Of a stretch of 64,000 nt of DNA, positions 10,688 through 55,829 are shown one piece after another. The stretch comes from Channallabes apus (Eukaryota > Chordata > Actinopteri > Siluriformes > Clariidae). Numbering within the stretch: the stretch's first letter is position 1; every line of letters starts with the position of its first letter. A program made the translations under genes and the position numbers. The stretch lies in NCBI GenBank assembly GCA_030522415.1, contig CM060130.1:23759965-23823964 (forward strand), given 5' to 3'. The notes under the pieces were generated by a model. The model was not told the origin of the DNA and did no database searches. It was given only the letters and a program-made list of their open reading frames with translations.

Positions 10688-10858
10688 TGTCATGATTTCC
10701 TCTGTGTCTGCGTCTGGTGCGTGTTCGTGGCATGAATGCGGAGGAGGCGAGCTGACGGTTCAATATGTTCTTTTTATTTAAAGTAAATAACATAAACCAA
10801 GTGGAACACCAAACACAAACAAATCCTACATCAACAAAAGCTAGACGCCTGACTGCTG

Positions 10859-11160
10859 GGGGGTGTTCTTCGTACGTCGCTAACTCAGTTAGCTGGATTT
10901 GATTGTTGTGGATTTGTCCTGATCTTGGATTGTTTCGTTCTCCGATGCTCATCTCGCACTTGTTGTCATAGCAACATGTCCGTAAGCTTGAACCTGCTCG
11001 GTAGCAGGTTTATTTCATGTAAACAGGATTAAGGCTGCGCTCCTGCCGGGTTATGATTGGTTGAAATGGTGAGGTCACATCTGATTGGTTAAAGAGCGCT
11101 GACGTGGACTGACTCACGTGGGGAAAGAAAAGTATCTTGCATGCATATATACGTCTTGCC

Positions 11161-11233
<73 letters not shown>

Positions 11234-11390
11234 GATATCAAATATTATATTAGAACATAAATTCATAAGTTTTCTATTATTATAATAAACTCTAGGCACG
11301 AGACAGCCCTCAAGACCATTAATTCAAATTCTTGTATAATGTTTATTTTGTAACACATTTATTTTTCAGGGGTTCGTTATAAATATGCAA

Positions 11391-11445
<55 letters not shown>

Positions 11446-12026
11446 TGTATAATAAAAATATTTTTTTTATAATGAAAAATTGGACAAAACTAATTTTATT
11501 ATAAAGTAAACAATATAAAAGTATACATGTTTTTAAAAAAAATATTCATACTTAAATTTTTCCATATACAACATATTTTTTTCATATTTCTTATTTTATT
11601 GTCTCATGTAATTTGTAAAACATATGTGCATATTATGTTCTAATATAATATTTGATAGTGATTATGTGTGTGTGGTGGGAGGGGGGGATCCATGGCAGGG
11701 AAGCATTTCAGCGCATAACACGTGGGGGGGGGGGGGGGGGAGCATTTCAGCGCAGGTGTTACAAAAAAAATTAGCTTGTTCTTTTTGTCATTTTGTCAAC
11801 CAATCAAAGGGCTTGTGATCAGTGTTTCTACTGTCGATGCATATCGCCTTTTAAACCAACGCACGAACGCGCAATAATCCTAGACAACTCAATCCGGCCA
11901 AACTAATCATCAACAACAGGTGTGCTCGAAGAACCGACTTAGCCAGGTCTTAATTAGCACGATGATCTCATCTTAGATGTGTCAATTCATCCCGGATGTT
12001 TCAAGCGACGTACGAAGAATACCCCC
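10859..12026. mobile_element. Non-autonomous DNA transposon with G-rich TIRs inside E1 LTR
   Basis: Comparison with the intact E1 LTR shows an insertion between GACTGCTG and TTCAGCC. Its ends are GGGGGTGTTCTTCGTACGTC and, as reverse complement, GGGGGTATTCTTCGTACGTC, one mismatch apart. The target CTG is duplicated (10856-10858 and 12027-12029). There is no transposase ORF; the interior holds long (TA)n and (GA)n microsatellites. A 3-bp duplication fits PIF/Harbinger best, but CTG is not the usual TWA target, so the family is uncertain. Confidence 0.8.
11164..11232. repeat. (TA)n microsatellite
   Basis: About 34 TA units inside the DNA transposon. A further (TA)n-(GA)n tract lies at 11391-11442, and a run of 14 G is near 11725-11740. 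Confidence 0.95.
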
Positions 12027-12203
12027 CTGTTCAGCCAGGCTATTTATACATAAACAAATCATAATTGGCTTTCCTCGGTTCAGGTGAGCTTCTTACGTCA
12101 CCTGACCGAGGTGCAAACTGGGAACTGAAGTCAAAACGAAACTTAAAACAAACTACAAAACAAAACCAAAAACGGGCGTTAGGCGCCCTCTAGGGGTTAA
12201 CCG

Positions 12204-14402
12204 TCACAGAATCCCCCCCCAAAAAATGCTCCTCCGGAGCATCACCGGAGGCCCCGGACACCCACCCCAATGTTCTACCTTTTGCCCCCTGACCAGGGGG
12301 CTGGGTGACGGGGCTGGAGACGTGCTCAGCGGCTGCTGAGCTGGAGACGTGCTCGGCCGTGGCAGAGCTGGAGACGTGCTCGGCCGTGGCAGAGCTGTCA
12401 CTGCGCTCGACGGCGGCGTGGGAGCGCTCACTGCGCTCGACGGCGGCGTGGGATCGGTCACTGCGCTCGACGGCCGCGTGGGAGCGTACTCGGCGCTCGA
12501 CGGCCGCGTGGGAGCGCACTCGGCGCTCGACAGCGGCGTTGGAGCGCACTCGGCGCTCGACAGCGGCGTTGGAGCGCACTCGGCACTCGACAGCGGCGTT
12601 GGAGCGCACTCGGCGCTCGACAGCGCCGTTGGAGCGCACTCGGCGCTCGACAGCGGCGTTGGAGCGCACTCGGCGCTCGACAGCGGCGTGGGAGCGCACT
12701 CGGCGCTCGACAGCGGCGTTGGAGCGCACTCGGCGCTCGACAGCGGCGTTGGCGCGCACTCTGCGCTCGACAGCGGCGTTGGAGCGCACTCGGCGCTCGA
12801 CAGCGGCGTTGGAGCGCACTCGGCGCTCGACAGCGGCGTTGGAGCGCACTCGGCGCTCGACAGCGGCGTTGGAGCGCACTCGGCGCTCGACAGCGGCGTT
12901 GGAGCGCACTCGGCGCTCGACAGCGGCGTTGGAGCGCACTCGGCGCTCGACAGCGGCGTTGGAGCGCACTCGGCGCTCGACAGCGGCGTTGGAGCGTACT
13001 CGGCGCTCGACAGCGGCGTTGGAGCGTACTCGGCGCTCGACAGCGGCGTTGGAGCGTACTCGGCGCTCGACAGCGGCGTTGGAGCGTACTCGGCGCTCGA
13101 CAGCGGCGTTGGAGCGTACTCGGCGCTCGACAGCGGCGTTGGAGCGTGCAGTGCGCTCGACGACGGCTCTGGAGCGTGCAGTGCGCTCGACGACGGCTCT
13201 GGAGCGTGCAGTGCGCTCGACGACGGCTCTGGAGCGTGCAGTGCGCTCGACGACGGCTCTGGGTCGTCTTCAAAGCCGGGAGGCGGCGGCAGAATGGGTG
13301 TGTGGGACAGCGGCTGCTGGCATGCTAGCTCGCTGTCCTCAAAACCGGGAGGCGGCGGTAGAACTGGTGCATCGGTCAGCGCCTGCTGACACGCTAGCTC
13401 ACAGTCCTCGAAGCCAGGAGGTGGCGTTGGAGCGTGCACGGCGCTCGACTGCAGCGTTGGAGCGTGCACGGCGCTCGACTGCAGCGTTGGAGCGTGCACG
13501 GCGCTCGACTGCAGCGTTGGAGCGTGCACGGCGCTCGACTGCAGCGTTGGAGCGTGCACGGCGCTCGACTGCAGCGTTGGAGCGTGCACGGCGCTCGACT
13601 GCAGCGTTGGAGCGTGCACGGCGCTCGACTGCAGCGTTGGAGCGTGCTCAAAGCCGGGAGGCGGCGGCAGAACAGGGGCGTCGGTCAGCTGCTGCTGACA
13701 CGCTGGTTCGCTGTCCTCGAAGCCGGGAGGCGGCGGAAGAACGGGTGCATGGCACTGCGGCTGCTGACACGCTCGCGCACTGTCCTCCGTGACAGGTTCA
13801 GGCAGTGGCCGGGGAAGGAGCGCATCGTCCAGATCCGGGAGCGAGATAGCTTCCGGGACTACAGGCTGGTTCTCCCGAAACTGGACGACCTGCAGTTGGA
13901 GCTGCAGCACCTGCTCGCGCAGGTCACGAATGCGCTCCTGGTTGAGCTCCGCCCACTGCCCGTAGCAGCCTACCTCATGCGCGTTTCCCTCCGTGTCGGC
14001 TTCAGGCAGTGGCCGGTGGAGGAGTGCATCGTCCAGATCCGGGAGCGAGATAGCTTCCGGGACTACAGGCTGGTTCTCCCGAACCTGGACGAACTGCAGT
14101 TGGAGCTGCAGCACCTGCTCGCGCAGGTCGCGAATGCACTCCTCATTGCGCTCAGTCCACTGCCTGTAGAACTCCTCCTGCCTCTCCGCCTCCTCGGCGT
14201 ACCTGCAGTTCTCCCCGCTTTGCCCGAACTCTGCTTCGCCGTGTTCCACGCTGTCCTCCAGCAAATTCTCCTGCTCTACCAGCAAGCTGTACTCCCAGCT
14301 GTGGTACATGTCCTCCTCGCTGTCCTCTAGCCAGTCCGCCAGCTCGTTGGAGATGGTAATCACGCCCCCCCAAAATTCGTCCCGGGGGGGAACCTCCGCC
14401 AT
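12204..14402 (-). CDS. E1 tandem-repeat protein, 732 aa, unknown function
   Basis: I chose the ATG at 14402, the first after the primer-binding site; the frame is also open upstream into the LTR. Residues 1-12 read MAEVPPRDEFWGG. An acidic stretch and two near-identical ~55-residue blocks follow (about 81-135 and 149-201), each with a coiled-coil-like LREQVLQLQLQ and then VVPEAISLPDLDDALL. Next come PPPPGFE modules, seven copies of a HAPTLQSSAV 10-mer, four HAPEPSSSAL, and more than 25 APTPLSSAE(Y/C)-type 10-mers. The last ~30 residues carry HWGGCPGPPVMLRRSIFWGG. The stop codon TGA is formed by bases 3-5 of the 3' LTR (TGTGA). I recognise no enzyme domain. The ends are shared with the E2 protein at 52660-54804. 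Confidence 0.75.
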   Translation of the reverse strand: MAEVPPRDEFWGGVITISNELADWLEDSEEDMYHSWEYSLLVEQENLLEDSVEHGEAEFGQSGENCRYAEEAERQEEFYRQWTERNEECIRDLREQVLQLQLQFVQVRENQPVVPEAISLPDLDDALLHRPLPEADTEGNAHEVGCYGQWAELNQERIRDLREQVLQLQLQVVQFRENQPVVPEAISLPDLDDALLPRPLPEPVTEDSARACQQPQCHAPVLPPPPGFEDSEPACQQQLTDAPVLPPPPGFEHAPTLQSSAVHAPTLQSSAVHAPTLQSSAVHAPTLQSSAVHAPTLQSSAVHAPTLQSSAVHAPTLQSSAVHAPTPPPGFEDCELACQQALTDAPVLPPPPGFEDSELACQQPLSHTPILPPPPGFEDDPEPSSSALHAPEPSSSALHAPEPSSSALHAPEPSSSALHAPTPLSSAEYAPTPLSSAEYAPTPLSSAEYAPTPLSSAEYAPTPLSSAEYAPTPLSSAECAPTPLSSAECAPTPLSSAECAPTPLSSAECAPTPLSSAECAPTPLSSAECAPTPLSSAECAPTPLSSAECAPTPLSSAECAPTPLSSAECAPTPLSSAECAPTPLSSAECAPTALSSAECAPTPLSSAECAPTPLSSAECAPTPLSSAECAPTRPSSAEYAPTRPSSAVTDPTPPSSAVSAPTPPSSAVTALPRPSTSPALPRPSTSPAQQPLSTSPAPSPSPLVRGQKVEHWGGCPGPPVMLRRSIFWGGIL
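12410..13260. repeat. 30-bp minisatellite, about 28 copies
   Basis: Unit GGAGCGCACTCGGCGCTCGA followed by CAGCGGCGTT in plus orientation, with point variants grouped in blocks (TAC for CAC from 12996 on; a GTGCAGTGC/CGACGGCTCT variant from 13141). The unit is a multiple of three, so the E1 reading frame is kept. Neighbouring units are more alike than distant ones, as expected from local unequal exchange or slippage. Confidence 0.95.
13428..13648. repeat. Second 30-bp minisatellite in E1, seven copies
   Basis: The unit GGAGCGTGCACGGCGCTCGA plus CTGCAGCGTT is repeated with almost no variation. It encodes the HAPTLQSSAV 10-mer on the minus strand. Confidence 0.95.
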
Positions 14403-14414
14403 GCCACTTGAACG

Positions 14415-14424
14415 GTCTAGCTTT
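14415..14424 (-). promoter_or_regulatory. E1 self-complementary primer-binding site
   Basis: On the minus strand the sequence after the LTR end (CA) is G and then AAAGCTAGAC. Its exact complement GTCTAGCTTT lies in the 5' LTR (plus 14575-14584), whose first base is 31 bp downstream of the first T of the TATA box, at the expected RNA start. This is the arrangement of Tf1/sushi-type self-primed elements. No conventional TGG-type tRNA site is present. Confidence 0.75.
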
Positions 14425-14425
14425 C

Positions 14426-14775
14426 TGTCATGATTTCCTCTGTGTCTGCGTCTGGTGCGTGTTCGTGGCATGAATGCGGAGGAGGCGAGCTGACGGTTCA
14501 ATATGTTCTTTTTATTTAAAGTAAATAACATAAACCAAGTGGAACACCAAACACAAACAAATCCTACATCAACAAAAGCTAGACGCCTGACTGCTGTTCA
14601 GCCAGGCTATTTATACATAAACAAATCATAATTGGCTTTCCTCGGTTCAGGTGAGCTTCTTACGTCACCTGACCGAGGTGCAAACTGGGAACTGAAGTCA
14701 AAACGAAACTTAAAACAAACTACAAAACAAAACCAAAAACGGGCGTTAGGCGCCCTCTAGGGGTTAACCGTCACA
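14426..14775 (-). repeat. E1 5' LTR (350 bp)
   Basis: In element orientation it starts TGTGACGGTTAACC and ends AATCATGACA. It contains a TATAAATA box (plus 14608-14615), a predicted RNA start near 14584 and an AATAAA signal within AAATAAAAAG (plus about 14509-14518). Its copy at the other end is split by an insertion but otherwise appears identical. Confidence 0.9.
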
Positions 14776-14780
14776 GTCTG

Positions 14781-15706
14781 CAAATTTTTCAAGTACACAA
14801 TGTTACCTGTTGTCAAATTCCATTATAAGAAACTAAGAATAAATTATTAATTAATCTAACATTAATATAGAGGGAGATTTTACACTTAACACTTTGTAGT
14901 GGCACATTTAACTTTTCTTCAGAAGTATAATAGAAGCATAATAAATATAATTTTCTTTTTAGCAATTTAATGTCATGCAGGTGCCTCATATGGACATTTG
15001 GTAGGACAATGAATGCAGTTTTAATAGAATTATCTGAATAGAATGTAACAAATATAAAACTATCAAGTGTAACAAATAAAGTTTTTTTTTTTTTAACTTG
15101 ATCGAATTTATTGATTAAAATGTGTATATTGGGTCCAAGCAAAACAAAACAATGTTTATCAACATGCTAAATTCATCTATCCCATTTTAATTACCGTTTG
15201 TTTCACATAAAATAATTGATGAGCAATAACAGTTTTAAATTAAGTTTGCTTTATTTGTTTATGTACGTTTAGGTTGTTTTTTTTAATACTTTTTTAAAAC
15301 AATGTTAATATCTTTTTTTTTTACTTTAATTGTATAGGTTGTTGTAGCATTTAAGGTAGCACATTAAAGGTGGAAAAAAACATCATTTCTCTTTGATTGA
15401 TTATTTACATTAAAGGGGACATACGGTGCTACATGCACTTTGTCAAGCTGTTTGGACTGAAATGTGTGTTAGGAGAGTGTGTACACAACCATTCTACAAT
15501 GATAAAGAGCCGCCCAGCGATTTTCTTTTAATTTAATAAAACAAGATGCCCCTTCTGAAATCAGGCCGTTTTCAAAAGCCTGTCGGTGTGACGTCACAAC
15601 GACAGAGGCCGCTCCCACAATAGTTGATTGACACTGGTGTTTTAGCAAAGACCCGCCTCGAGTGAAAAGAAAGCCGTCGGCCATTGTTTTTCTACACTGG
15701 AGCAAA
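14781..15706. other. AT-rich intergenic sequence, no gene seen
   Basis: Runs of A and T only. The last 150 bp become GC-richer and hold GTGACGTCACAACG near 15589, a CRE-like site upstream of the THAP exon. Confidence 0.5.
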
Positions 15707-15994
15707 ATGGCGCCTACGCGAGTGTGGTGTACAGGTGTTGGATGTAATAGCGAACACAGCAGTCGTCATGCACTACCGACATCTGAGCAGCTGAGGACGC
15801 AGTGGCTGAATTTTGTTTTTGAAGTTAACGTCCCCGTGGATCTACCTAAATGCGTTCATGTTTGCGCTAATCATTTTTCACCGGACTGCTTTATAAATGA
15901 GGGTCAATATAAAGCAGGTTTTGCTAGGAAGCTGCTCTTGAAAAGGGGATCTGTACGAACGCTTCGTGTTGCTGCTTCATCTTCACCAGGCTCG
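15707..15994 (+). CDS. THAP-type zinc-finger first exon
   Basis: Starting at ATG 15707, the 96 codons read MAPTRVWCTGVGC and on, then CVHVCANHFSPDCF and YKAGFARKLLLKRGSVRTLR. The C-x4-C ... C-x2-H spacing (CTGVGC and CANH) fits a C2CH THAP finger, a DNA-binding domain found in THAP proteins and P-element-type transposases. The exon ends at a good donor (TCG|GTGAGT). No partner exon was found downstream before the next repeat, so this could be a gene with distant exons, a retained first exon of a multicopy fish gene, or a piece of a domesticated transposon. An upstream in-frame Met at 15662 is less likely, as the region before 15700 looks like 5' UTR. Confidence 0.55.
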
Positions 15995-16049
15995 GTGAGT
16001 GTAATTTCTTTTTCTATGAAAGATCGCCTTTTCTAATAATCACGGTGAA

Positions 16050-16270
16050 TGCGGAGTGTAATACTCCTATATCACTTATGCGGTTTGACTCACCGTGAGT
16101 CGCCTCGTTTGTCCGCCGACGTTCCGCTGGCGCTCCGCGAAGTTCTGTATGGCCCACAAGCTTCCGTGAGGACTGGCAAATATATAAATAAACATGTTTA
16201 ATTTTTAGCGCGGAAAGATGGAAACCTACTCACAGCACTAACAACTTACGGCCACCGCGCAAAACAATGC
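16050..16270. repeat. Dispersed repeat shared with 46211-46525
   Basis: The two loci share TTGACTCAC-GTGAG, CGCCG-CGTTCCGCT, CCGCGAAGTTCTG, CACAAGCTTCCG, AACATGTTTAATTTTT and CTTACGGCCAC in the same order. This is a short non-coding element with inverted GACTCAC/GTGAGTC words near its ends. Confidence 0.65.
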
Positions 16271-16683
16271 ATTAAGGTGATTGTCTTGTTGCAAACTGTG
16301 TATGTAGTCGGAAAACTATATTATGCTTACCTTTGTAACGCTAGATGGTTTATAATGGTGTCTGTCAATGATAAGAAGTGATGTGTAAAGTTTTTCTAAA
16401 GTTGTGTAGCAGACGAGGCGAGTCCGCTGTGCTTCGGTAAGCTTTTCTGGCGCCCCGGGAGACTCAGTCAAACACACACACACACACACGCGTTGTCTGT
16501 CAGAAAGGTCTCTGTTTATTAACAGCAAAGGATGGGTTTATATATGTTTGACCAAACGCCTGTGCTATAGACATATGTTACTACAAAGAACAATAAGCAT
16601 TGTAAAGATCCTGATGAAACAATGCTTCGCGTGTATGATGTCCTAGGTTGAATACCCGGCATTTCCATGAGGCAGCACAGTAG
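16271..16683. other. No gene; (CA)n at 16471-16489
   Basis: A non-coding stretch holding a short CA microsatellite. Nothing else is recognised. Confidence 0.5.
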
Positions 16684-16975
16684 TCCTGGTGGTCTAGTGG
16701 TTAAGACTCAGTGCTCTGACATGGGAGACCGCTCGGGGAAGTTAAGTTTTGTGCAAGCAATGGTTATTCAGCGGCCGTTTTATGCCCTTATTTGTCTAGT
16801 TTATTTTACTAGTTAAATTTATTTTCTTTAGTATTTCTTTTTATTAATATTTATTCCTTACGTATAAGCTTTTATTTTCTTTTGAAGGTCACTGGCTGTC
16901 GTATAAGCATTTCACTGCATATCATACTGTGTATGACTGTGTATGTGACAAATAAAATTTTAATTGGCAGTTAAA
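16684..16975 (+). mobile_element. tRNA-Glu-headed SINE with Rex1 LINE tail
   Basis: The head (16684-16740) reads TCCTGGTGGTCTAGTGGTTA and continues like the 5' half of tRNA-Glu, including a pol III A box (TGGTCTAGTGG). The B box is degenerate. From about 16780 on, the sequence matches the 3' UTR of the Rex1-like LINE of this window (reverse complement of about 25395-25590). Shared words include CTTTAGTATTTC, AAGGTCACTGGC, GTATAAGCATTTCACTGCAT and GTATGACTGTGTATGTGACA. Head plus borrowed LINE tail is the standard SINE design and points to Rex1 as the mobilising partner. Confidence 0.75.
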
Positions 16976-16977
16976 TT

Positions 16978-18030
16978 GAATAATTATTTAATTACTAATA
17001 ATTAAAGCTGTTCACATCGCGCGCTTTCACTTAAAAAAAATGCAGTGTTTAATCAGCAAGTATATGTCGCTTCTCTTTATGATAGAGGAATATTATGAGT
17101 GAAACAAAGCTGCTCGTGTCGGCTCATATCGGGAGCATTTTGTACAAACACCATAGCACAATGTGTGTGAACGGCCGAAATGTGGTTATGAATTTTATTG
17201 AATGTAAAATGTTCGCGTGAACCCGCGGCGCGTGTGTGCGCTCTTTCACTTTGCCGAGTTTTGATAAAGTCAGATGAACGCGCGTGCCGATATGAGAGAT
17301 TTATTATCTTTCCCAGAAATATAAAAAAACAAAAATTTATACGTGTTAAATGCATGCATGTACACACTAAAAATGCTGGGTTGTTTTTTCTACCCAAACG
17401 CTGGGTTGCTCACAAAACAGTGAGCGCATATATCCTTTGATGTGTCATATGCCTCAGCATATTGTTTAAATAATCATGGTGGTCCGCTATAGCCAAAAAT
17501 GCCAGGGCCGTTATTTGGTCCCAGTCCAGCCCTGGTCCGAGCACAACGTAATAATCTTTGTATGATAAAATGACTCGTGGCATGAATCAACATGGAGCGC
17601 TTCAGTTTCAAATAATAATTCAATAATATGATAATAATGATCAAAAGTAAAACAATATTGTTATTTTTTCTGTTTATGTCCACCATTTAATAATTATTTA
17701 ATTATCAATAATTAAAGCTGCTCACATCGCATGCGCTTTCACTTAAAAAAAAAATGCAGTGTTTAATCAGCAAGTATACGTATGTCGCCTCTCTTTATGA
17801 TAGAGGAATATTATGACTGAAACAAAGCTGCTCGTGTCGGCTCATATCGGGAGCATTTTGATCAAAGAGGAGAAAGCTATGATGAAACAAAGCTGTGTGT
17901 GAATGGCCGAAATGTGATTGTGAATAAATCTTTTAGTGAATGTAAAATGTTCGTGTGAACCCGCGGCGCGCCGAAATGAGATTTCTCTTTCCCAGAAATA
18001 CAACAAAGACAAATGTATACGTGTTAAATA
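16978..18030. repeat. Segmental tandem duplication (two ~340-bp copies 710 bp apart)
   Basis: The copies at about 16978-17320 and 17689-18020 share long stretches: ATAATTAAAGCTG, CTTTCACTTAAAAAAA, ATGCAGTGTTTAATCAGCAA, TTTATGATAGAGGAATATTA, AACAAAGCTGCTCGTGTCGG and GAATGTAAAATGTTCG. No conserved ORF runs through both. Confidence 0.8.
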
Positions 18031-19478: not shown

Positions 19479-19518
<40 letters not shown>

Positions 19519-25746: not shown

Positions 25747-28560
25747 TTAGTCCTGTGTGTGATTGAGAGACCTTATCGCCTGCGGGAAGAAGCTCCTCCT
25801 CAGCCTCTCTGTGTTGGTCTTTAGGGAGCGGAATCGCTTCCCAGACCGCAACAAAGAGAACAGTCCATTACTGGGGTGACTGAGGTCCTTCATGATCTTC
25901 CTAGCCTTAGTCCAGCACCGCTTGCTGTAGATCGAGTGCAGGTCAGTGCGGATGATGCGTTCGGCTGATCGCACCACCCTCTGTAGAGCTCGTCTGTCCT
26001 GCATGGTGCTGTTCCCGAACCAGGTTGTGATGTTTCCCGTCAGGATGCTCTCTATGGTGCAGGAGTAGAAGTTCCTGAACACCTTGGAGGGCAGTCTAAA
26101 GTCTCTCAAGCGTCTGAGGTGGTAGAGACGCTGCCGGGCTTTTTTCACCACGGTGTTGATGTGACAGGACCATGACAGGTCCTGCGTGATGTGAACACCG
26201 AGGTATCTGAAGCTGTCCACTCTCTCCACTGGGCTCCTGTTGATGACGGGGGTCTGGTAGTTCCTCTCCTGCTTTGTACTAAAGTCCACTATCAGCTCCT
26301 TTGTCTTACTGACGTTCAGGAGGAGATTGTTCCTCTGGCACCAGTTCTCCAGATTTCCAATCTCCTCTAGGTAGTCCGACTCATCATTGTTTGTGATCAG
26401 TCCGACCACGACGGTGTCGTCAGCAAACTTGATGATGGAGGTGGAGTTGGTAGTGGCCACGCAGTCGTGGGTGTACAAAGAGTACAGCAGGGGGCTCAGA
26501 ACACAACCCTGGGGGGCTCCAGTGCTGAGAGTGAGTGTAGCTGAGACATGACCGCCCATCCTTACTGCCTGTGGTCTGCCAGTCAGAAAATTGGAGATCC
26601 ACTGACATATAGATGAGCTGAGTCCCAGGTGCTCCAGCTTGGTGGTGAGTGTGGAGGGAATTATGGTATTAAAAGCAGAGCTGTAGTCGATGAAGAGCAT
26701 TTTAACATAATTCCCTTTCCTAGTGTCCAGGTGAGTGAGTGATGTGTGCAGGAGATGAGAGATTGCATCGTCTGTGGAGCGGTTCGGACGGTATGCAAAC
26801 TGTAGTGGGTCCAGTGTGTCGGGTAGTGAAGAAATGATGAAGTCTCTGATAAGGCGTTCAAAGCACTTCATCACTACTGAGGTGAGGGCTACAGGGCGAT
26901 AGTCATTGAGGGAAGCAGGATGTGGTTTCTTCGGGACAGGAACAATGATGGACTCTTTGAAGCATGTGGGGATCACCGACTGAGATAGAGAGATGTTGAA
27001 TATCTCAGTGAACACAGGTGCTAGCTGGTCTGCGCAGGCTCTGAGGATACAGCCTGAGATGCCGTCTGGTCCTACTGCTTTCCTGGTGTTCACTCTCTTG
27101 AAGGCTCTCCTCACGTCGTGCTCGGAGATGATGAGCGCGTTCCCGGTGCTGGCAGTGTCTTCCTGTCTGCAGCCGTTAGCGCCGCTAGCATTAGCGCCGC
27201 TAGCATTAGCGCCGTTAGCATTAGCGCCGTTAGCATTAGCACCGTTAGCGTTAGCGCCGTTAGCATTAGCAACGCTAGCGTCTTTAGCTGCAGCCTCGAA
27301 GCGAGCATAGAAGGTGTTGAGCTCGTCTGCCAGAGTCGCGTCCGCGTTCGTCATACCGGATGTTGGTGCTTTATAATCCGTTATTGTTCTCAGTCCCTGT
27401 CACAGGCTCCTAGAGTCACTCTGTTGAAGCTGTAACTCTAGTTTTCTCCAGTAGCGCTGCTTTGCCTCTTTCACCGCCTTCCGGATGTTGTATGACGCAG
27501 CCTTGTACGGTTCCATGTCCCCCGACGCAAGTCCCGTGTTGTAGGCAGCGGTGCGAGATCTCAGAGCGTCGCGGATGGTTTTATCCACCCACGGCTTCTG
27601 GTTGGGAAACGTTCTGATAGTCTTTTTCTCCACCGTATCGTCTACCAGCTTCTCAATAAATCCCACAACCGCTTCCGTAAACACGCTGACGTCATCATCG
27701 GAGCTGTTTCTGAACATGTCCCAGTCTGCGTCATCGAGTGCGTCCTGTAACGCGGCCACCGATTGGTCCGTCCAGCGCGCGACCTCCCTCTGAACCGGAA
27801 CTTCCTGTTTCAGCCTTTGTTTATATTTTGGCATGAGGAAGATGGCGGCGTGGTCGGATTTACCAAACGCTGGATGAGATTGTGCCTTGTAACCGTCTTT
27901 GCCCGTGGTATAACAGTGGTCCAGTGTCCTTTCGCCCCTGGTGGGGCAGGTGATGTGCTGATAAAAGTTCGGCGCTGCGCGTTTGAGGTTGGCACTATTA
28001 AAGTCCCCCGCCCGGTGTTGTGTCTGGTGCTGTGTGAGCGCCTCATGCAGCTCGCATAAGGCAGTGTTAGTGTCTGCTTGTGGTGGGATGTAAACGGCAC
28101 TGATTATGACCGATGTGAACTCCCGTGGAAGATAAAAAGGACGACACATGATGGACAGTAGTTCCAGGTTTGGTGTGCAGGAGCGTGTAAGAGGAACAAC
28201 GCTCGCGCTGTTGCACCAGCTGTTGTTCACCATTAAGCACACGCCGCCTCCACTTGACTTCCCCGAGTCCCGCGTCCTGTCCATGAGGTGAACCGAGAAG
28301 AACTCGGCCGGCTGTATGGCGTGGTCTGGCACCGCTGGGTTCAGCCATGTCTCGGTGAAGCAGAGGAGATTGCAGTCCCGAATGTCTCTCTGGAACTTTA
28401 TCCTGGCCCTGAGGTCATCGAGTTTGTTCTCCAGTGACTGGACGTTGGCGAGCAGGATACTAGGCAGAGGTGTGCGGTGTGCACGGTCTCTGAGCCGGTT
28501 CCTCACTCCAGCTCATCTCCCTCGAGGCCTCCGCTTCGCGTCGCGTCCATTGTTCTCCCT
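25747..28560 (-). pseudogene. Rex1-like endonuclease-reverse transcriptase ORF with two in-frame stops
   Basis: The endonuclease part (28506 down to 27400) shows LLANVQSLENKLDDLRARI, FTETWL, SGGGVCLM, VYIPPQ, AGDFN, RTLDHCYT and KSDHAAI. A linker (27355-27400) leads to RT: KAVGPDGISG, LNDYRPVALTSVVMKCFERL, FAYRPNRSTDDAI, DYSSAFNTI, TGAPQGCVLSPLLYSLYT and the catalytic FADD in IIKFADDTVV. The C-terminus is long and basic. A TGA at 27400-27402, where relatives have Trp, separates EN from RT without changing frame. Another TGA near 28522 interrupts RGR-AGVRNRL. The Asn-Gly-Ala repeat at 27175-27275 is a local 15-bp expansion. Inactive as it stands. Confidence 0.85.
27175..27280. repeat. 15-bp minisatellite inside LINE ORF
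   Basis: Seven units of GCCGTTAGCATTAGC type. They encode repeated Ala-Asn-Gly residues between endonuclease and RT and keep the frame. Confidence 0.9.
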
Positions 28561-30132: not shown

Positions 30133-30171
<39 letters not shown>

Positions 30172-34574: not shown

Positions 34575-34583
34575 ATATACTCT

Positions 34584-40622: not shown

Positions 40623-40662
<40 letters not shown>

Positions 40663-46817: not shown

Positions 46818-49075
46818 GTTTGGTCTTCATGACAGAAATGTAGAAGGACAGATGGTGGTGGACTTTGCAAAGAGGATGGAAATGGCAGTAGTAAATACTT
46901 TCTTCCAGAAGCGGCAGGAACATAGGGTGACATACAGTATAAGAGTGGAGGCAGAAGCACTCAGGTGGACTACATCTTGTGTCGACGTTGTAATCTGAAA
47001 GAGATCAATGACTGCAAGGTGTTGGTAGGGGAGAGTGTAGCCAGACAACACAGAATGGTGGTGTGTAAAATAAACCTGGGGGTGAGGAAGGTGAAGAGGA
47101 CAAAGGCAGAGAAGAGGACAAAGTGGTAGAAGCTGAGAAAGGAAGAATGTTGTGTAGTCTTTAGGGAGGAGTTGAGACAGCCTATGGGTGGTCAGGAGGT
47201 GCTTTCAGTTGACTGGACAACTACAGCCAATGTGATCAGGGAGACAGGTAAGAGGGTACTTGGTGTATCAACAGGTAAGGGCAAAGTGGACAATGAGACT
47301 TGGTGGTGGAACGAGGAAGTCCAGGAGTGTATACAGGGAAAGAGGCTAGCTAAGAAAAAGTGGGACACTGAGAGGACTGAAGAGAGTAGACAGGAGTTCA
47401 GGGAGATGCACCGTAAGGTGAAGGTAGAAGTGGCAAAGGCCAAACAAAGAGCATATGAGGACTTGTATGCTAGGCTGGACAGTAAGGAGGGAGAGGTGGA
47501 TCTGTACAGGTTGGCGAGGCAAAGAGATAGAGATGGGAAGGATGTGCAGCAGGTTAGAGTGATTAAAGATAGAGATGGAAATGTACTGACAGATGCCAGG
47601 AATGGTGATGGGAAGATGGAAGGAGTACTTTGAGGAGTTGATGAATGAGGAAAACGAAAGAGAAGAAAGAGTGGAAGAGGTGACTGTTGTGGAGCAGGAA
47701 GTAGCAAATATTAGTAAAAGTGAGGTGAGAAGGGCGTTGAAGAGGATGAAGAGTGGAAAGGCTGTTGGTCCTGATGACATACCTGTGGAGGTGTGGAAGT
47801 CCTTACGAGAGGTGGCAGTAGAGTTTCTGATTAGTTTGTTTAATGAGATCTTGGAGAGTGAGAGGATTCCAGAGGAATTCCGGAGAAGTGTATTGGTGCC
47901 GATTTTTCAGAACAAGGGAGATGTGCAGAGCTGTGGCAATTACAGAGGTATAAAGCTAATGAGCCATACAATGAAGCTGTGGGAAAGAGTAGTGGAGGCT
48001 AGGTTAAGGGCAAAGGTGAGAATTTGTGAGCAGCAATATGGTTTTATGCCTAGAAAGAGTACATCAGATGCAGTATTTGGTTTGAGGATGCTGGTGGAGA
48101 AGTACAGAGAAGGTAATAAAGAGTTGCATTGTGTCTTTGTAGATTTAGAGAAAGCGTACGACAGGGTGCAGAGAGAGGAGCTGTGGTGTTGTATGAGGAA
48201 GTCTGGAGTGGCAGAGAAGTATGTTAGAGTGGTGCAGGACATGTATGAGAGCTGTAAGACAGTGGTAAGATGTGCTGTAGGTGTGACAGAAGAGTTCAAG
48301 GTAGATGTGGGTCTGCATCAAGGATCGGCTCTAAGCCCCTTTTTGTTTGCTCTAGTGATGGAGAGGATGACAGATGAAGTTAGACAGGAGTCTCCATGCA
48401 CTATGATGTTTGCAGATGACATTGGGCTTTGTAGCCAGAGCAGGGAACAGGTGGAGGAAAATTTGGAGAGGTGGAGGTACGCTCTGGAAAGCAGAGGAAT
48501 GAATGTTAGCCGCAGCAAGACGGAATACATGTGTGTGAATGAGAGGGACCCAAGAGGAACAGTGAGGCTACAGGGAGCAGAGGTAAAGAAGATGCAGGAT
48601 TTTAAGTACTTAGGGTCAACGGTTGAGAGCAACGGAGAGTGTTCAAAGGAGGTGAAGAGACGAGTACAGGCAGGTTGGAATGGGTGGAGAAAAGTGTCAG
48701 GTGTGTTGTGCGATGAAAGAGTATCAGCGAGAATGAAAGGAAAGGTGTACAGGACAGTGGTGAGACCAGCAATGCTCTATGGCTTAGAGACAGTGGCACT
48801 GAAGAAAAGACAGGAGGCAGAGCTAGAGGTAGCAGAGCTGAAGATGTTGAGGTTCTCCTTGGGAGTGACAATGATGGATTGGATCAAGAATGAGTTCATC
48901 AGAGGGACAACCCACGTTAAATGTTTTGGAGATAAAGTCAGAGAGGCCAGAGTGAGGTGGTTTGGACATGTTCAGAGGAGAGAGTGTGAATATATCGGTA
49001 GAAGGATGCTGAGGTTTGAACTGAGGAAAAGAGGAGATTTATGGATGCAGTGAGAGAGGACATTGAAGTTAGTTG
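46818..49075 (+). pseudogene. RTE endonuclease-reverse transcriptase, truncated and frameshifted
   Basis: 46820-46945 encodes the end of the endonuclease (EGQMVVDFAKRMEMAVVNTF), then stops appear. 47172-47600 is the linker (WWNEEVQECI, LARQRDRDGKDV, IKDRDGNVLTDAR). A frame change near 47600 leads to the RT (47605-49053): MGRWKEYFEELMNEE, SGKAVGPDDIPVEVWK, NYRGIKLMSHTMKLWERVVE, QYGFMPRKSTSDAVFGLRML, FVDLEKAYDRVQREELW, LHQGSALSPFLFALVMERMT and the catalytic FADD in MMFADDIGL. The C-terminal part has WFGHVQRRECEYIGRRML, then another frameshift near 49040 before the expected end. A recent but dead 5'-truncated copy. Confidence 0.85.
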
Positions 49076-49148
49076 GTGTGAGAGAGGCAGATGATTCGCT
49101 GTGGCGACCCCTGAAAGGCAACAGCCGAAAGACAAAGAAGAAGAAGAA
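46818..49148 (+). mobile_element. RTE-type LINE, 5'-truncated
   Basis: Both borders are set by comparison with the empty homologous site at 44630-44650. The 5' end starts within the endonuclease. The 3' end is CGCTGTGGCGACCCCTGAAA, then GCCGAAAGACAAAG and (GAA)n. The V-SINE-like SINE at 34337 shares this 3' end. Confidence 0.85.
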
Positions 49149-49860
49149 GGCAAAATATGAAAAGGTAGTACATGAAAAGCTGAAGTTTTGCCTAAAGGAA
49201 AAATTTACATGAACCACACGGCTCCGCGAACGGCGCTGTCTTCAGTTTAACACAACAACACGCTGTATCGTTGCCTAATTGTTTGCCACCTGTTTAATAT
49301 TAAAGTGATTGCCAATTTTAATGAATTAGTCACATTATGAAATAGGCTAATTAAAAGTCACTATTAGTTCTGATATGAAATAAAATAAAATTCATAAACA
49401 GGCCTACAGTATATTCCATCATTAATATGACTTTGATAACGAGCCATAATGTGTTTGCATACACCGCTGATTTATAACGACTGCTACTCAGTGGCGGCGA
49501 CTACCGTCTGGAGCTGAAACTACGCTAAGAATGAGTTAAGGTTGGTCCAGACCAACCTTACGAACGTGTGACTTACCAAACAGATACTTAGCGTACGAAC
49601 GTTTCGGGAAATGCGCTATAAGGTTAAGAGAGAGGTTAAGGTACAACTTAAGAACTACTTAGCGATAAGAAGCTTCCGAGAAACCGGGCCCTGGTCATTC
49701 AGTACATTTAATTAGATTATTTTTGTTCTGATTCGCCTCATTAACAAGTGGTTTTCTGATAGTCACACAGCTGTTTAGTCCTAATCGTGTGAGCTCTGTG
49801 ATTTCTGCTGTCACTTTTGTGAGAATTTTTTTTAATGATCCACTTTCAAGTGTTTGATAT

Positions 49861-51595
49861 TGCGTCAGAGACACAAGCATTGTTACATGAAATTTGTCAG
49901 AGTGGAAGTTCTTTAGTCTTCAATAGTCGGGTCTGAGCTTTAGGCAGAGATCACTCATGTAAGTAACACACTGCACATAGCAGTCTCACTGGACTTGATG
50001 TTTTCAACAATAATTTTTGTTTTTCAAACCAGTTGATCACAGATGTGTGTTACTGCACCCAGTATTTAATTGTTTAATTATAAATTATTTATTATTCACT
50101 ATGTTGTTATTTTAATATAAATATTAAACTTCTAGCTGAACATCTTTAAACTAAAAGCAAAGAATGAAGTTATTCTGTCTGTAAATCATAAGTTTTTCAC
50201 TTTATATTTTATCTAACATTACATTTCTCTCTCTGTTGTTCCACACGACACCTTCAGGACCGGTAAGTAAATAACGACTTCACACTAATGATAAACACTG
50301 ATATTTTATAAACTCATCACATGTATTAGATTTTAATTCAGGAATCAAATAGAAACATAAAAACATTTCAGATGATGTTTATGTGAAGGACTCTGATCAG
50401 TAAGTGAGATTCCACTACCATCAGTCTGCTTCTTTCCCACAATGCACCTGTGTGTAACCCCACTGTACTGCAATAATGTAGACAGAGACGTTTAACATGT
50501 CGAGTAAAAGACACAACACACATATAACACACACCATTGCCAGACTCCATCAGAATCTCATACAGAATCATATAAGAATAAAAATATAACATTTCCCAGG
50601 ATTCCTCTGGATGGAACAGTTGTCTATTCTGCAAGTGTCCAAGTAACATATCAGTATTTTTGTATTATTTTAATGAGCTGTGGCTCATAATTGTGTTCTT
50701 ACTGAAACACAGAGTGACATGACATTTCCTGACACTTCACAATAAACATAAATCAGAGCTTTAACAGTGTTCAGTGCTTGTAGACAGAATAATTGCCATC
50801 ACTTGCTCTGCATAACAATCACACCATATTGTGAAAAAGCATTGAAGAGTTGACTCGGGCTAGCGTTTAGCCTCTTTAAGCTAACAGTAGTAAGTCATGT
50901 TAATGCACACAGCATAAAGACAACCTGACTGACCTGAGAACAGAAGTCCTTCACTTAATTTATAAAACTTCTATAATAGGAGAGAGGGATTTAGGAGTGA
51001 AAGAGAGAAAAACAGAACGAGATCACACATCTTCCCAAGTCTACTGCGACATATCATATGCTGTCGTAACCAATATATAGACGAGGCCGTAGCAAAGCAC
51101 ATCATTCTGTTATCTGTTCAGTTTATTACATTGATAAATGTCTGTGTTTATAATTAAAGGAAGTGGGAATCTGATATTCTGTATATTCCTTTATGTACTA
51201 CAATAGCACATAGATATATTACAGAATATTTAACTATACAGTAGATTTAAAATACACAGGGGGAAATGCACATATACTGACATACTGTATATTGGTAAAC
51301 ACATGCAGATATCAGAAAATAGTATTTTACAATAAATCACAAGATATTTCTGTTCCTTAAGGGGAACTAGCGGTATATTAGCACAATGCTACATTATACA
51401 GATTTACTGTGTGTGATGACTGATTGTTGTCTAGTTTTCCTCTTTTTTATTAAGACACACATCAGCTGTGTTTTAACCAGAGTAACAGTTACTTTCACAT
51501 TTTCACATGAAACAATTCACATTTATAATCATGCATTAAATCTTCACTCTCTATTATTTACTTTCACAGAACCCGTTAGGTGAGTATAAAGTCTT
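49861..51595. repeat. Tandem duplicated block, copy B
   Basis: Partner of copy A at 42805. It lacks the membrane-segment exon (deleted between 50015 and 50026) and carries an extra ~345 bp at about 50936-51280. Possible micro-exon borders are retained (CTTCAG|GACCG|GTAAGT near 50257; CACAG|AACCCGTTAG|GTGAGT near 51571). No other coding sequence is seen. Confidence 0.65.
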
Positions 51596-51915
51596 TTCTC
51601 TGATTGTAAGTGCCATATCGCATGTAAGTGCCATATCGCACTTGTTATGAATTTGTTGTTGTGTTTATTTTATTTTATTTTATTTGCTGTTATTTCATTT
51701 ATTCCACCTTGTTCTATTCATTAGTAAAGCATTAAGCATTGAGTTTGTTACATAAGCCATAAGCTTTATATTTCTTAGTCATGCATCATAAGTTGATAAT
51801 CGTAGGTTGGTCTGTGATGTCATTCTACTATTACATGCATTTGTGTGACTGTGATATGCTAGAAAGCTCAGTATAGATTTGGAAGGCTATGGAAACACAA
51901 GCTTTAGACCGTCAG

Positions 51916-52657
51916 TGTCACGGTCAAACACCAGATGGCGCCAGACTCCGAGACTCCATTTTGTTTTCTGTTCCATTTCAGTTTGGTTTTTGAACTCCGT
52001 TTCCCAGAGAGCACCTCGGTCAGGTAATGGGAGCACACCTGATCGAGGTTAGCAGCCATCAGTACAAAGATAAATAGACTTTTGTTCCCTTTGTTCTGGG
52101 TCGGGCATCTGTTTTGTTACGGCAATGCTAAGTGGGTGTTTTGTTCTCAGTGTCATGCCACTCCCCCTTGATCTTGGTTTGTGTTATTCTGTGTTTTGGT
52201 TCAGTTCTGTATCCAGTCTAACTCTTTGTTTAGTTAACTCTTTGTTTAGTCAGCTCTGTGTTTAGTTCACTCTGTGTTTCGTTTAGCTCCATGTTTAGTC
52301 TAGCTCTGTGTTTTGTTTAGCTCTATGTTTAGTTTAGCTCTATGTTCAGTCTAGCTCTGTGTTTGGTATAGCTCTATGTTTAGTTTAGCCCTATGTTTGG
52401 TATAGCTCTGTGTTTGGTATAGCTCTATGTTTAGTTTAGCTCTAAGTTTAGTTTAGCTCCATGGTTAGTCTAGCTCTGTGTTTAGGTTAGCTCTGTGTGT
52501 TAGGTTAGCTCTGTGTGTTAGGTTAGCTCTGTGTGTTAGTTCAGTTCGAGTCCTGTTTGTACCATTCACCTTCTGTTCCTTTATTAAAAACCCCTTTTGC
52601 ACTCTATCACCTCCGCCTCCATGTCTTCTCCAAACCCCACACGAGCACCCCGTTACA
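51916..52657 (+). repeat. E2 5' LTR
   Basis: TATA-like ATAAATA at 52070-52076, predicted RNA start about 52099, and an ATTAAA poly-A signal near 52583. The part from 52210 to 52545 is a ~22-bp tandem repeat (TAGCTCTGTGTTTAGT and variants). The 3' copy is 54693-55457. Confidence 0.9.
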
Positions 52658-52659
52658 GA

Positions 52660-52669
52660 ATGCCCGACC
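52660..52669 (+). promoter_or_regulatory. E2 self-complementary primer-binding site, overlapping the start codon
   Basis: After LTR end ...TTACA come GA and then ATGCCCGACC. The exact complement GGTCGGGCAT is at 52099-52108 in the LTR, 29 bp downstream of the TATA-like box. The ATG of the ORF is the first three bases of the site, as also happens in the gypsy element at 59761. Confidence 0.75.
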
Positions 52670-54804
52670 TAAAAAGTAGTATAGCGGAGGGGCCTCCCCT
52701 GGATATTTTTTGTGGGGGGGCTATGTTCGTGACGCCAAGGCAAGGAGGCTTTCAGGGCAGCAGGCTTGCCATTCGGCGGAACAAGCTGGAGCAAGAGGGC
52801 GAACGAGTAACGCAGCCAGATTGGAGAGGGTCGCGGCTGGCGATACGACGCGTGCCTCCAAGGACACAGGACGATGGAACCAGGGGTAGGGAAAAACCCC
52901 AGTCGGAGTGTCGACAGACGGGTCACGACGTGGAGCACCAGCAGCAGAGGCGAGTACTCCAACAGCTGGCTGGGGAACTCATCCAGCAGGTCAATGCGTG
53001 CAGGGCGGACAACGATCTGGAACGCATGCAAACCCTGCTGGAGTTGGGGGCACGACTCCAGGATCAGCTCGTTCAGCTGGATCGAAAGTGCCCAGCCGTT
53101 CCAGAGAGCCCCGTGATGGGCCCAGCCGTTCCAGAGAGCCCCGTGATGGGCCCAGCCGTTCCAGAGAGCCCCGTGATGGGCCCAGCCGTTCCAGAGAGCC
53201 CCGTGATGGGCCCAGCCAATCTCCCAGAGAGCCCAGTTGAAGGCTCCGATCTCCCAGAGAGCCCAGTTGAAGGCTCCGATCTCCCAGAGAGCCCAGTGGA
53301 GGGCTCCGATCTCCCAGAGAGCCCAGTGGAGGGCTCCGATCTCCCAGAGAGCCCAGTGGAGGGCTCCGATCTCCCAGAGAGCCCAGTGGAGGGCTCCGAT
53401 CTCCCAGAGGGCCCAGTGGAGGGCTCCGATCTCCCAGAGGGCCCAGTGGAGGGCTCCGATCTCCCAGAGGGCCCAGTGGAGGGCTCCGATCTCCCAGAGG
53501 GCCCAGTGGAGGGCTCCGATCTCCCAGAGGGCCCAGTGGAGGGCTCCGACAGCCCCAAAGAGCATGAGCCAGCTCAGCGACAGCCCTGCCTCGTCAATGA
53601 CTTTGTGCCTCAACCGCTGTTTGGCGTCGTCGACGACGACACCGAACTACCGCCGCCGCCTCCGCCATGCCTCGACGACGAGCTGCCTATGTCCGCCTTC
53701 GAGGACTTCGAGCTGCCTCCTCCACCATGGCCATGCCTCGGCAACGAAGTCGAGCCGTCGGCCAGATTCGGCGGTGATCCAGCTCCGTCTCTGCCCTACG
53801 AGCCAGCTCCGTCTCTGCCCTGCGAGCCAGCTCCGTCTCTGCCCTGCGAGCCAGCTCCGTCTCTGCCCTGCGAGCCAGCTCCGTCTCAGCCCTGCGAGCC
53901 AGCTCCGTCTCTGCCCTGCGAGCCAGCTCCGTCTCTGCCCTGCGAGCCAGCTCCGTCTCTGCCCTGCGAGCCAGCGCCGTCTCTGCCCTGCGAGCCAGCG
54001 CCGTCTCTGCCCTGCGAGCCAGCGCCGTCTCTGCCCTGCGATCCAGCGCCGTCTCTGCCCTGCGATCCAGCGCCGTCTCTGCCCTGCGATCCAGCGCCGT
54101 CTCTGCCCTGCGATCCAGCGCCGTCTCTGCCCTGCGATCCAGCGCCGTCTCTGCCCTGCGATCCAGCGCCGTCTCTGCCCTGCGATCCAGCGCCAATGCT
54201 CCTCGCTCCGCCGCCCGGCTTCGCCGACGACCCAGCGCCAGTGCTCCTCGCTCCGCCGCCCGGCTTCGCCGACGACCCAGCGCCAGTGCTCCTCGCTCCG
54301 CCGCCCGGCTTCGCCGACGACCCAGCGCCAGTGCTCCTCGCTCCGCCGCCCGGCTTCGCCGACGACCCAGCGCCAGTGCTCCTCGCTCCGCCGCCCGGCT
54401 TCGCCGACGACCCAGCGCCAGTGCTCCTCGCTCCGCCGCCCGGCTTCGCCGACGACCCAGCGCCAGTGCTCCTCGCTCCGCCGCCCGGCTTCGCCGACGG
54501 ACCAGCGCCAGTTCTCCTCGCTCCGCCGACAGGACTCGGCGACGACCCAGCTCCTGTGCCCACCCTGCCACCCTGCCCAGGGAACCTGTGCTGCAGCCTC
54601 TCGGTTGGTAGGACCGACATTGGACCTTGGGGGGGTTTCCCTGGACCACCATTTTGGGCGCTCCGGAGTAGCGCCCTTTGGAGGGGGGGTAATGTCACGG
54701 TCGAACACCAGATGGCGCCAGACTCCGAGACTCCATTTTGTTTTCTGTTCCATTTCAGTTTGGTTTTTGAACTCCGTTTCCCAGAGAGCACCTCGGTCAG
54801 GTAA
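52660..54804 (+). CDS. E2 tandem-repeat protein, 714 aa, unknown function
   Basis: I chose the ATG inside the primer-binding site; the same frame is open further upstream into the LTR. Residues 9-20 read AEGPPLDIFCGG, matching AEVPPRDEFWGG of E1. GSRLAIRR occurs twice (33-40, 57-64). Residues 92-141 are a probable coiled coil (QQRRVLQQLAGELIQQV, LLELGARLQDQLVQLD). Then come four AVPESPVMGP 10-mers, eleven SDLPE(S/G)PVEG 10-mers, two proline-rich FELPPPP blocks, about 18 (E/D)PAPSLPC 8-mers and seven to eight 15-mers PAPVLLAPPPGFADD. Near the C-terminus is PWGGFPGPPFWALRSSALW, after which the frame runs 37 codons into the 3' LTR. No enzyme domain is recognised. Function unknown; a structural or RNA-binding role in trans-mobilised particles is only a guess. 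Confidence 0.7.
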   Translation: MPDLKSSIAEGPPLDIFCGGAMFVTPRQGGFQGSRLAIRRNKLEQEGERVTQPDWRGSRLAIRRVPPRTQDDGTRGREKPQSECRQTGHDVEHQQQRRVLQQLAGELIQQVNACRADNDLERMQTLLELGARLQDQLVQLDRKCPAVPESPVMGPAVPESPVMGPAVPESPVMGPAVPESPVMGPANLPESPVEGSDLPESPVEGSDLPESPVEGSDLPESPVEGSDLPESPVEGSDLPESPVEGSDLPEGPVEGSDLPEGPVEGSDLPEGPVEGSDLPEGPVEGSDLPEGPVEGSDSPKEHEPAQRQPCLVNDFVPQPLFGVVDDDTELPPPPPPCLDDELPMSAFEDFELPPPPWPCLGNEVEPSARFGGDPAPSLPYEPAPSLPCEPAPSLPCEPAPSLPCEPAPSQPCEPAPSLPCEPAPSLPCEPAPSLPCEPAPSLPCEPAPSLPCEPAPSLPCDPAPSLPCDPAPSLPCDPAPSLPCDPAPSLPCDPAPSLPCDPAPSLPCDPAPMLLAPPPGFADDPAPVLLAPPPGFADDPAPVLLAPPPGFADDPAPVLLAPPPGFADDPAPVLLAPPPGFADDPAPVLLAPPPGFADDPAPVLLAPPPGFADGPAPVLLAPPTGLGDDPAPVPTLPPCPGNLCCSLSVGRTDIGPWGGFPGPPFWALRSSALWRGGNVTVEHQMAPDSETPFCFLFHFSLVFELRFPESTSVR
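53095..54540. repeat. Four in-frame minisatellites of E2
   Basis: 30-bp units (53095-53214, four copies; 53221-53550, eleven copies), 24-bp units (53777-54192, about 17 copies) and 45-bp units (54193-54540, seven to eight copies). All unit lengths are multiples of three. Variants (GAG/GGG, GAG/GAT codons) are grouped in blocks, showing local homogenisation. Confidence 0.95.
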
Positions 54805-55829
54805 TGGGAGCACACCTGATCGAGGTTAGCAGCCATCAGTACAAAGATAAATAGACTTTTGTTTCCTTTGTTCTGGGTCGGGCATCTGTTTTGTTACGGC
54901 AATGCTAAGTGGGTGTTTTGTTCTCAGTGTCATGCCACTCCCCCTTGATCTTGGTTTGTGTTATTCTGTGTTTTGGTTCAGTTTTGTATCCAGTCTAACT
55001 CTTTGTTTAGTTAACTCTTTGTTTAGTCAGCTCTGTGTTTAGTTCACTCTGTGTTTCGTTTAGCTCCATGTTTAGTTTAGCTCTATGTTCAGTCTAGCTC
55101 TGTGTTTGGTATAGCTCTATGTTTAGTTTAGCCCTATGTTTGGTATAGCTCTGTGTTTGGTATAGCTCTATGTTTAGTTTAGCTCTAAGTTTAGTTTAGC
55201 TCTAAGTTTAGTCTAGCTCTGTGTTTAGGTTAGCTCTGTGTGTTTAGGTTAGCTCTGTGTGTTTAGGTGAGCTCTGTGTGTTTAGGTGAGCTCTGTGTGT
55301 TAGGTTAGCTCTGTGTGTTAGGTTAGCTCTGTGTGTTAGTTCAGTTCGAGTCCTGTTTGTACCATTCACCTTCTGTTCCTTTATTAAAAACCCCTTTTGC
55401 ACTCTATCACCTCCGCCTCCATGTCTTCTCCAAACCCCACACGAGCACCCCGTTACAGTCAGCTAGTGAGAGCTCCCGGTAAGCTAGAAATGTAAAATAC
55501 AGCAACGAGGTTGTTGTAACCGTAAGCTAACGTAAGCTGGGAATGTAAGAAACAACAAGAGTGTTGTTAGATACCCAAGCCAAGATTGTAATCTACAAGA
55601 TACAGCAAACAGGTTGTTGTAAAACTCAGAGATTTGCAAGATGCAGCAACTGGTGTCTGTAATAACAGTGGATTTACTCAAGACGACTGTATGAAGTGTT
55701 GATTCTTTGATGCTGACAAATAAACTACAAAAGACAAAGAGATCGGACTTCTGTCATGTGAGTGAAACTTTAAGACATTAGCTACGAGTCAAAACTAGTG
55801 AAAAAAGCCAACCGCATCTACATCGCACG

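Follow-up and report, generated by a model that had tools for sequence, protein, structure and literature searches.

E1 and E2 are LTR elements with a single ORF

We analysed a window of 64,000 nt of the 1.16-Gb Channallabes apus genome (CM060130.1:23,759,965-23,823,964, GCA_030522415.1) that contains two long terminal repeat (LTR) elements, E1 and E2, and, at its right-hand end, part of a sushi-type Ty3/gypsy element with gag-pol. The initial annotation had described E1 and E2 as complete LTR elements with perfect 5-bp target-site duplications (TSDs), each encoding a protein of about 700 aa and no gag-pol. Both descriptions stand: the exact ends and the TSDs can be read directly, and one open reading frame (ORF) fills each interior (732 aa in E1, 714 aa in E2), with no Pfam family reaching its curated cut-off in either. 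The best Pfam match, a decapeptide repeat model on the E1 ORF, reaches 24 bits, where the cut-off is 45. TSDs of 5 bp, as in the Tf1/sushi group, flank E1, E2 and the gag-pol neighbour.

E1 lies on the minus strand between two copies of GTCTG (10683..10687 and 14776..14780). Its 5′ LTR (14426..14775, 350 bp) runs, in element sense, from TGTGACGG to ATGACA, and the ORF (12204..14402) ends with a stop that overlaps the start of the 3′ LTR. Ahead of that LTR is a polypurine tract (PPT; 12209..12226), preceded by a hairpin (ATGCTCCGGAGGAGCAT; 12226..12242). The 3′ LTR (10688..12208) is split into two pieces (10688-10858 and 12027-12208) by a nested insertion of 1,168 bp that is foreign to E1 (10859..12026), younger than the LTR that carries it and absent from the initial annotation. 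With its inverted ends (GGGGGT..TTCTTCGTACGTCGC) and 3-bp CTG duplication, this insertion resembles a non-autonomous DNA transposon.

E2 lies on the plus strand between two copies of GTCAG (51911..51915 and 55458..55462). Its 5′ LTR (51916..52657, 742 bp) runs from TGTCACGG to CGTTACA, and the ORF (52660..54804) starts inside the primer site and extends about 110 nt into the 3′ LTR (54693..55457). Here, too, a hairpin (GGGCGCTCCGGAGTAGCGCCC; 54656..54676) precedes the PPT (54680..54692). Both E2 LTRs contain a 17-bp tandem repeat in about 19–20 copies; its period is indivisible by three, which makes it a useful contrast to the repeats of the ORF. Since the two LTRs of E1 show no difference in either of the blocks compared (171 and 183 bp) and those of E2 differ by 6 substitutions in 709 aligned bases, both elements are young. 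The flanks of E2 are themselves repeated (51635-51915 with 55822-56099, and 55455-55823 with 56092-56453, at 88–94% identity), so E2 sits within repeated sequence. By eye, a similar stretch also follows the sushi element in locus L089.

Primer sites complementary to the RNA start

In both elements, 10 nt of the sequence that follows the 5′ LTR complement the presumed RNA start of that same element, which we placed from the spacing to a TATA-like box about 30 nt upstream. For E1 (minus strand), the box TATAAATA (14608..14615) is followed by the presumed RNA 5′ end GTCTAGCTTT (14575..14584), which complements the primer-binding site GAAAGCTAGACC (14414..14425; 10 nt, shuffle P 0.0015). For E2 (plus strand), the corresponding features are the box GATAAATA (52069-52076), the RNA 5′ end GGTCGGGCAT (52099..52108; shuffle P 0.0165) and the primer-binding site GAATGCCCGACC (52658..52669), which includes the start codon of the ORF. 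The gag-pol neighbour has 11 nt of such complementarity.

Among 30 E2-type loci, the window copy included, the best match reaches at least 9 nt in 27, the exceptions being L044, L050 and L054; in L036, primer site and RNA start bear matching changes. Minimum-energy folds of the E1, E2 and neighbour leaders, computed with no shuffle control, pair the RNA start with the primer site. We saw no TGG-type tRNA site directly after the 5′ LTR by eye (tRNA complementarity was not scanned). With the RNA start placed as above, the layout is the self-priming arrangement of Tf1. The LTR ends were compared with the Sushi consensus TGTYANR..CNTNACA, given in Table 3 of PMC3601003; E2 fits it at both ends and E1 at its 3′ end only.

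Multicopy families with a common N-terminal region

The initial view of E1 and E2 as one family of LTR elements devoid of gag-pol is supported, and the elements are multicopy. The genome search returned 236 matches to the E1 N-terminal region (206 aa) and 166 to that of E2, in addition to 40 scored matches to the E1 LTR among 3,786 candidates. The 150 E1 N-terminal matches listed, to which a few loci contribute two rows, group at about 98, 91, 85, 65 and 60% identity, and 138 of them are stop-free in the matched stretch by hand count. For E2, a stop occurs in one of the best 30 matches, and stops are common among weaker ones.

The two types are related to each other at their N-termini. Profiles of 20 E1-type and 15 E2-type sequences align over 63 columns (hhalign score 40.7, E 6.6e-6), as compared with a maximum of 19.4 in 60 column-shuffled controls. 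The aligned parts comprise the head motif and W-x-G-x-x-L-x-IRR-x-PPR; the helical part is not among them. Judged by these profiles, the shared region is beyond chance, which bears out the N-terminal motif noticed at the outset. The C-terminal motif recurs in related copies, but its last residues are encoded by the PPT and vary with the frame. The coiled coil that had also been proposed was not supported: in a simple heptad scan shuffled sequences scored equally high in 102/300 (E1) and 212/300 (E2) cases. Single-sequence structure models, which are poor overall (mean predicted local distance difference test scores of 48 and 62), predict helices; these are confident only at E2 residues ~88–141, a helical hairpin. 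No homologues of the E1 or E2 N-terminal regions were found at E<=0.001 in a large protein database whose vertebrate content is probably small, and no relatives were confirmed in viral contigs. Descent from Gag was considered and rejected: the E1 and E2 profiles matched the N-terminal piece of the neighbour's Gag no better than shuffles did (42/60 and 14/60).

L095 is of a third type, in which, by eye, a short head motif is followed by PPPPGFED-like repeats; neither N-terminal query matched it (tblastn, 1e-3). In L088 the head of one subfamily appears, also by eye, to be joined to the body of another, as expected if RNAs packaged together recombine. The longest open frames, of 3,877 aa (G000:C9:9027661, head in L077) and 3,109 aa (G000:C18:20117067, head in L071), suggest in-frame expansion of the repeat arrays.

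Selection on the N-terminal part and periods of the repeats

Between E1-type representatives, the ratio of nonsynonymous to synonymous substitution rates (dN/dS; NG86) is 0.33–0.83 for pairs with dS >0.1. As a null model, we re-dealt the same substitutions to sites of equal base and CpG state. Amino-acid changes fell below this null at P<0.05 in 15 of 16 chosen pairs, the exception being L074-L084 (P 0.20). The pooled E1 test, which left out the hairpin head, gave 210 amino-acid changes where 255.0 +/- 8.1 were expected, with none of 1,000 simulations as low (21 path-disjoint pairs); two small sets of deeper E1 pairs agree (136 against 160.4 +/- 6.1, and 141 against 169.2 +/- 6.3). A rough hand estimate from the pooled counts puts dN/dS (omega) at ~0.55 for E1. 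For E2, 23 changes were seen against 31.9 +/- 3.0 expected (P 0.002; 11 pairs with any change, of 14). Overlapping loci (L001, L002, L006, L007) were dropped from the pooled test, as were loci with an early stop (L025, L032 and L083 for E1, L057 for E2); because of the latter exclusion, the stop counts (0 against 11.2) were not used.

Within the limits of the sampling, the N-terminal part is under moderate purifying selection, and the ratio near 1 that would be expected at conserved ends free of constraint is not seen there. The initial proposal of selection on the protein is thereby partly supported, by the N-terminal deficit of amino-acid changes; part of the conservation of the ends may lie at the RNA or DNA level, as discussed below.

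The repeat units had likewise been described as multiples of three, and this is the case for 207 of the 212 arrays inside ORFs (periods >=12 bp), most commonly with basic periods of 24, 27, 30, 45, 69 and 204. Upstream arrays, mostly the 17/18-bp LTR repeats, have such periods in 29 of 68 cases, and arrays elsewhere (beyond a stop or across a border) in 31 of 32. These counts include overlapping loci and several periods per array, and arrays are shared by descent; independent cases are therefore far fewer. The arrays of E1 and E2 are open in other frames too. Considering the copies with a recognised 3′ LTR, and leaving out six loci fetched through their LTRs, the ORF reaches that LTR in 15/18 (not in L025, L028 and L035). 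Across the 60 loci L009-L068, 15 ORFs close with the C-terminal motif and 29 extend past the sequence examined.

Predicted hairpins at both ends of the ORF

A hairpin is predicted just inside the E1 ORF (14365..14390, minus strand; C7 GGGA / TTTT G7), where it encodes PPRDEFWGG, and another adjoins the primer site of E2 (GCCTCCCC / GGGGGGGC; 52692..52721, plus strand). By eye, a stem between a C-rich and a G-rich side is predicted in all 24 distinct E1-type heads. Two of the seven consensus stem pairs have changed on either side of the stem; as the same six related sequences account for both, this evidence comes from one lineage. Synonymous recodings of the 24 E1 heads fold slightly more weakly than the native sequences on average (mean z ~-1.1 by hand, range -2.6 to +0.5); the corresponding z is -0.7 for E2 and +0.4 for the neighbour. 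Overall, the hairpin in the first codons is likely real, and the N-terminal motif may in part be an RNA signal. That the hairpin alone accounts for the conservation of the N-terminus was rejected, as the recoding test is weak and a single subfamily supplies the double changes. L076-L078 and L081 have PPGTSFGG or PPGMSFGG in place of PPRDEFWGG in the head motif; there, indels around the C-run and the G-run compensate for one another, so that the frame is preserved downstream.

The hairpins that precede the PPT share the loop CCGGAG in E1 and E2 and differ in their stems. This 3′ hairpin is absent from L005 and L008, for which reason it was rejected as an indispensable signal, and the longer 3′ stretch often folds into other pairings. 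Given that the N-terminal motif overlaps a likely hairpin and that the end of the C-terminal motif is encoded by the PPT, the conservation of both ends may be partly at the RNA or DNA level.

The neighbouring gag-pol element as a candidate helper class

The sushi-type element at the end of the window (59377..64000, plus strand) extends past it. By eye, its 3′ LTR lies at L089:206-587, its LTRs are 382 bp long and its TSD is TATGT. It encodes Retrotrans_gag, Ty3_capsid, RVT_1, RNase H, rve (integrase) and SH3_Tf2-1 domains, and its gag start codon lies inside the self-complementary primer site, like the start of the E2 ORF. Its family is large and recent, with 141 scored gag matches at 98–100% and 9,398 candidates. 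The gag frame of the copy in the window is interrupted near the N-terminal end, and longer open frames exist in other copies. As its LTR and primer sequence differ from those of E1 and E2, we consider it a candidate for the class of helper only.

We also searched the genome for the E1 primer site joined to sequence from outside the family, a pattern that yielded six places. Four of these (L090, L092, L093 and L094) encode an E1-type N-terminus by tblastn; the others are the third-type L095 and L091, which has the family's AAGTGGCATG at the primer site and no tblastn match. None of the six is recognisably autonomous; the pattern admits about one third of random continuations, so an autonomous copy may still exist.

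Weighing the explanations

On balance, we favour the reading of E1 and E2 as two branches of one superfamily of LTR retrotransposons that are non-autonomous and have the self-primed layout of Tf1/sushi-type Ty3/gypsy elements. Each retains the parts needed in cis, namely LTRs with matching ends, complementarity between RNA start and primer site, a likely hairpin and a PPT, and has, in place of gag-pol, one ORF that extends from the primer site as far as the 3′ LTR. An autonomous element would supply the enzymes that package, self-prime and integrate their RNA. The ORF product would act in cis, since selection in elements of this kind keeps only products that help their own RNA. Its role can be put forward only tentatively; most simply, the protein might bind its own RNA or join that RNA to the particle of the helper. 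With the same reserve, one may picture a satellite superfamily that lost gag-pol or never had it and that evolved a cis-acting protein of its own, marking or carrying its RNA into the particles of self-primed helpers, together with a co-selected hairpin in the first codons. Satellite viruses similarly carry their own gene.

Several points weigh against the non-autonomous reading or its premise of a selected protein. Of 16 segment-wise tests (four pairs, with the N-terminal part cut in four), only 4 reached P<0.05; loci with an early stop (3/45 for E1, 1/30 for E2) were left out of the pooled test; and the ranking of loci by protein similarity biases toward apparent selection, a bias that the inclusion of query-distant subfamilies reduces and does not remove. 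At least 16 of the 60 loci mentioned above (9 E1-type, 7 E2-type) have an ORF that breaks or shifts ahead of the C-terminal motif, in some of them, such as L035, L038 and L060, through a late frame change only. The N-terminal part is thus well preserved, unlike, in many copies, the full length. Decay after insertion would be expected to leave this picture, which also speaks against any strict requirement that every copy have an intact ORF. Furthermore, the 5′ end of E1, TGTGACG, fits the consensus of the rGmr1 clade and not that of Sushi, the genome-wide search with the E1 primer-site pattern revealed, in its six places, no autonomous element carrying the LTR of E1 or E2, and no homology was detected between the E1/E2 protein and the N-terminus of the neighbour's Gag.

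The main rival, to which we give somewhat less credence than to either proposal for the role of the protein, is that the ORF is kept so that ribosomes reach the 3′ end of the RNA (for protection from nonsense-mediated decay, or for export), with the protein itself mattering little. An ORF that opens at the primer site or immediately downstream of it and continues to the 3′ LTR in most copies with a recognised one would be explained in this way, as would L060, whose ORF arrives at the 3′ LTR in a frame that lacks the C-terminal motif, and arrays that vary while their periods stay divisible by three, in frames of up to 3,877 aa. Under translation for its own sake, however, omega should be ~1 apart from stops, whereas the pooled E1 counts show a moderate deficit; nor would the N-terminal region be expected to remain recognisable between E1 and E2, and the broken or shifted copies sit poorly with a requirement for passage to the 3′ end.

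It is less probable that only the RNA signals (the duplex of RNA start and primer site, the hairpins and the PPT) are selected, the ORF being a by-product of GC-rich repeats with periods divisible by three and its conserved ends being those signals in translation. The overlap of the N-terminal motif with the predicted hairpin, including its two doubly changed pairs, would fit this, as would the PPT-encoded last residues of the C-terminal motif, the arrays open in several frames and the broken ORFs. What it leaves unexplained is the deficit of amino-acid changes outside the hairpin and the stop-free stretches ahead of the arrays in the great majority of the listed matches, and divisibility by three does not extend to the upstream repeats. 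Moreover, L076-L078 and L081 read the motif differently and still keep the downstream frame, recoding weakens the hairpin only slightly, and L005 and L008 do without the 3′ hairpin. A host gene captured and spread by an LTR element, which would account for an ORF without viral domains, seems very improbable: the matches to both types fall into several diverged groups, those examined are element-like in layout, and the protein database searched, with its probably small vertebrate content, held no homologue.

Relation to known elements

The self-priming of Tf1 and Tj1 is described in PMC4600332, which refers to Butler et al. 2001 for the vertebrate group. E1 and E2 resemble Tf1, Tj1 and the vertebrate sushi elements in having a primer site complementary to the RNA 5′ end, 5-bp TSDs, LTR ends of the form TGT..ACA, a PPT and, as in the neighbour, a first start codon at the primer site. 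They differ in encoding no gag, protease, reverse transcriptase, RNase H or integrase, and an unrelated repeat-rich protein instead. As they encode no Gag or Pol of the group, we describe them as working like Tf1/sushi elements, in non-autonomous form, and not as full members. The likeness to rGmr1, a fish Ty3/gypsy clade, lies in the LTR ends only: the consensus TGTNANR..CGTNACA in Table 3 of PMC3601003 fits E2 at both ends and E1 at its 5′ end, and several E1 relatives end in CGTGACA, whereas E1 itself ends in CATGACA. No pol was found in E1 or E2.

LARD and TRIM elements are mobilised in trans and typically are not known to have a selected ORF. As defined in PMC5718144, they have LTRs without complete gag-pol; E1 and E2 are alike in having LTRs, a primer site and a PPT without enzymes of their own, and differ in a coding interior that, within the sampling limits, seems to be kept. 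Turning to fish, Bhikhari and crestin of zebrafish are LTR elements that were considered as candidate relatives of E1 and E2. PMC9341512 calls both of them endogenous retroviruses, and PMC10996621, by its title, finds that zebrafish development requires endogenous retrovirus Gag proteins.

We found no description of a gag-less, self-primed LTR family with its own ORF in the open-licence PubMed Central literature, subscription papers and repeat databases being outside the scope of this search, and a named repeat-database entry for the E1/E2 type may exist. Non-autonomous LTR elements are usually seen as passengers without a gene worth keeping. Here, a recently active group of several families seems to preserve an unrelated protein of its own, as would be expected only if the RNA that codes for this protein benefits from it. 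E1 and E2 would therefore provide a clean natural setting in which to test cis preference, packaging and parasitism in the self-primed retrotransposons of a vertebrate. ORFs of this type might also lie behind repeat-rich 'uncharacterised proteins' that gene prediction may yield in fish genomes.

Other sequences in the window

Between E2 and the sushi element, two long open frames (56524-59409) have, by eye, a BEL/Pao-type look. Long open frames at 1140-2831, 25747-28512 and 47590-49053 likewise appear, by eye, to be similar to non-LTR reverse transcriptases.

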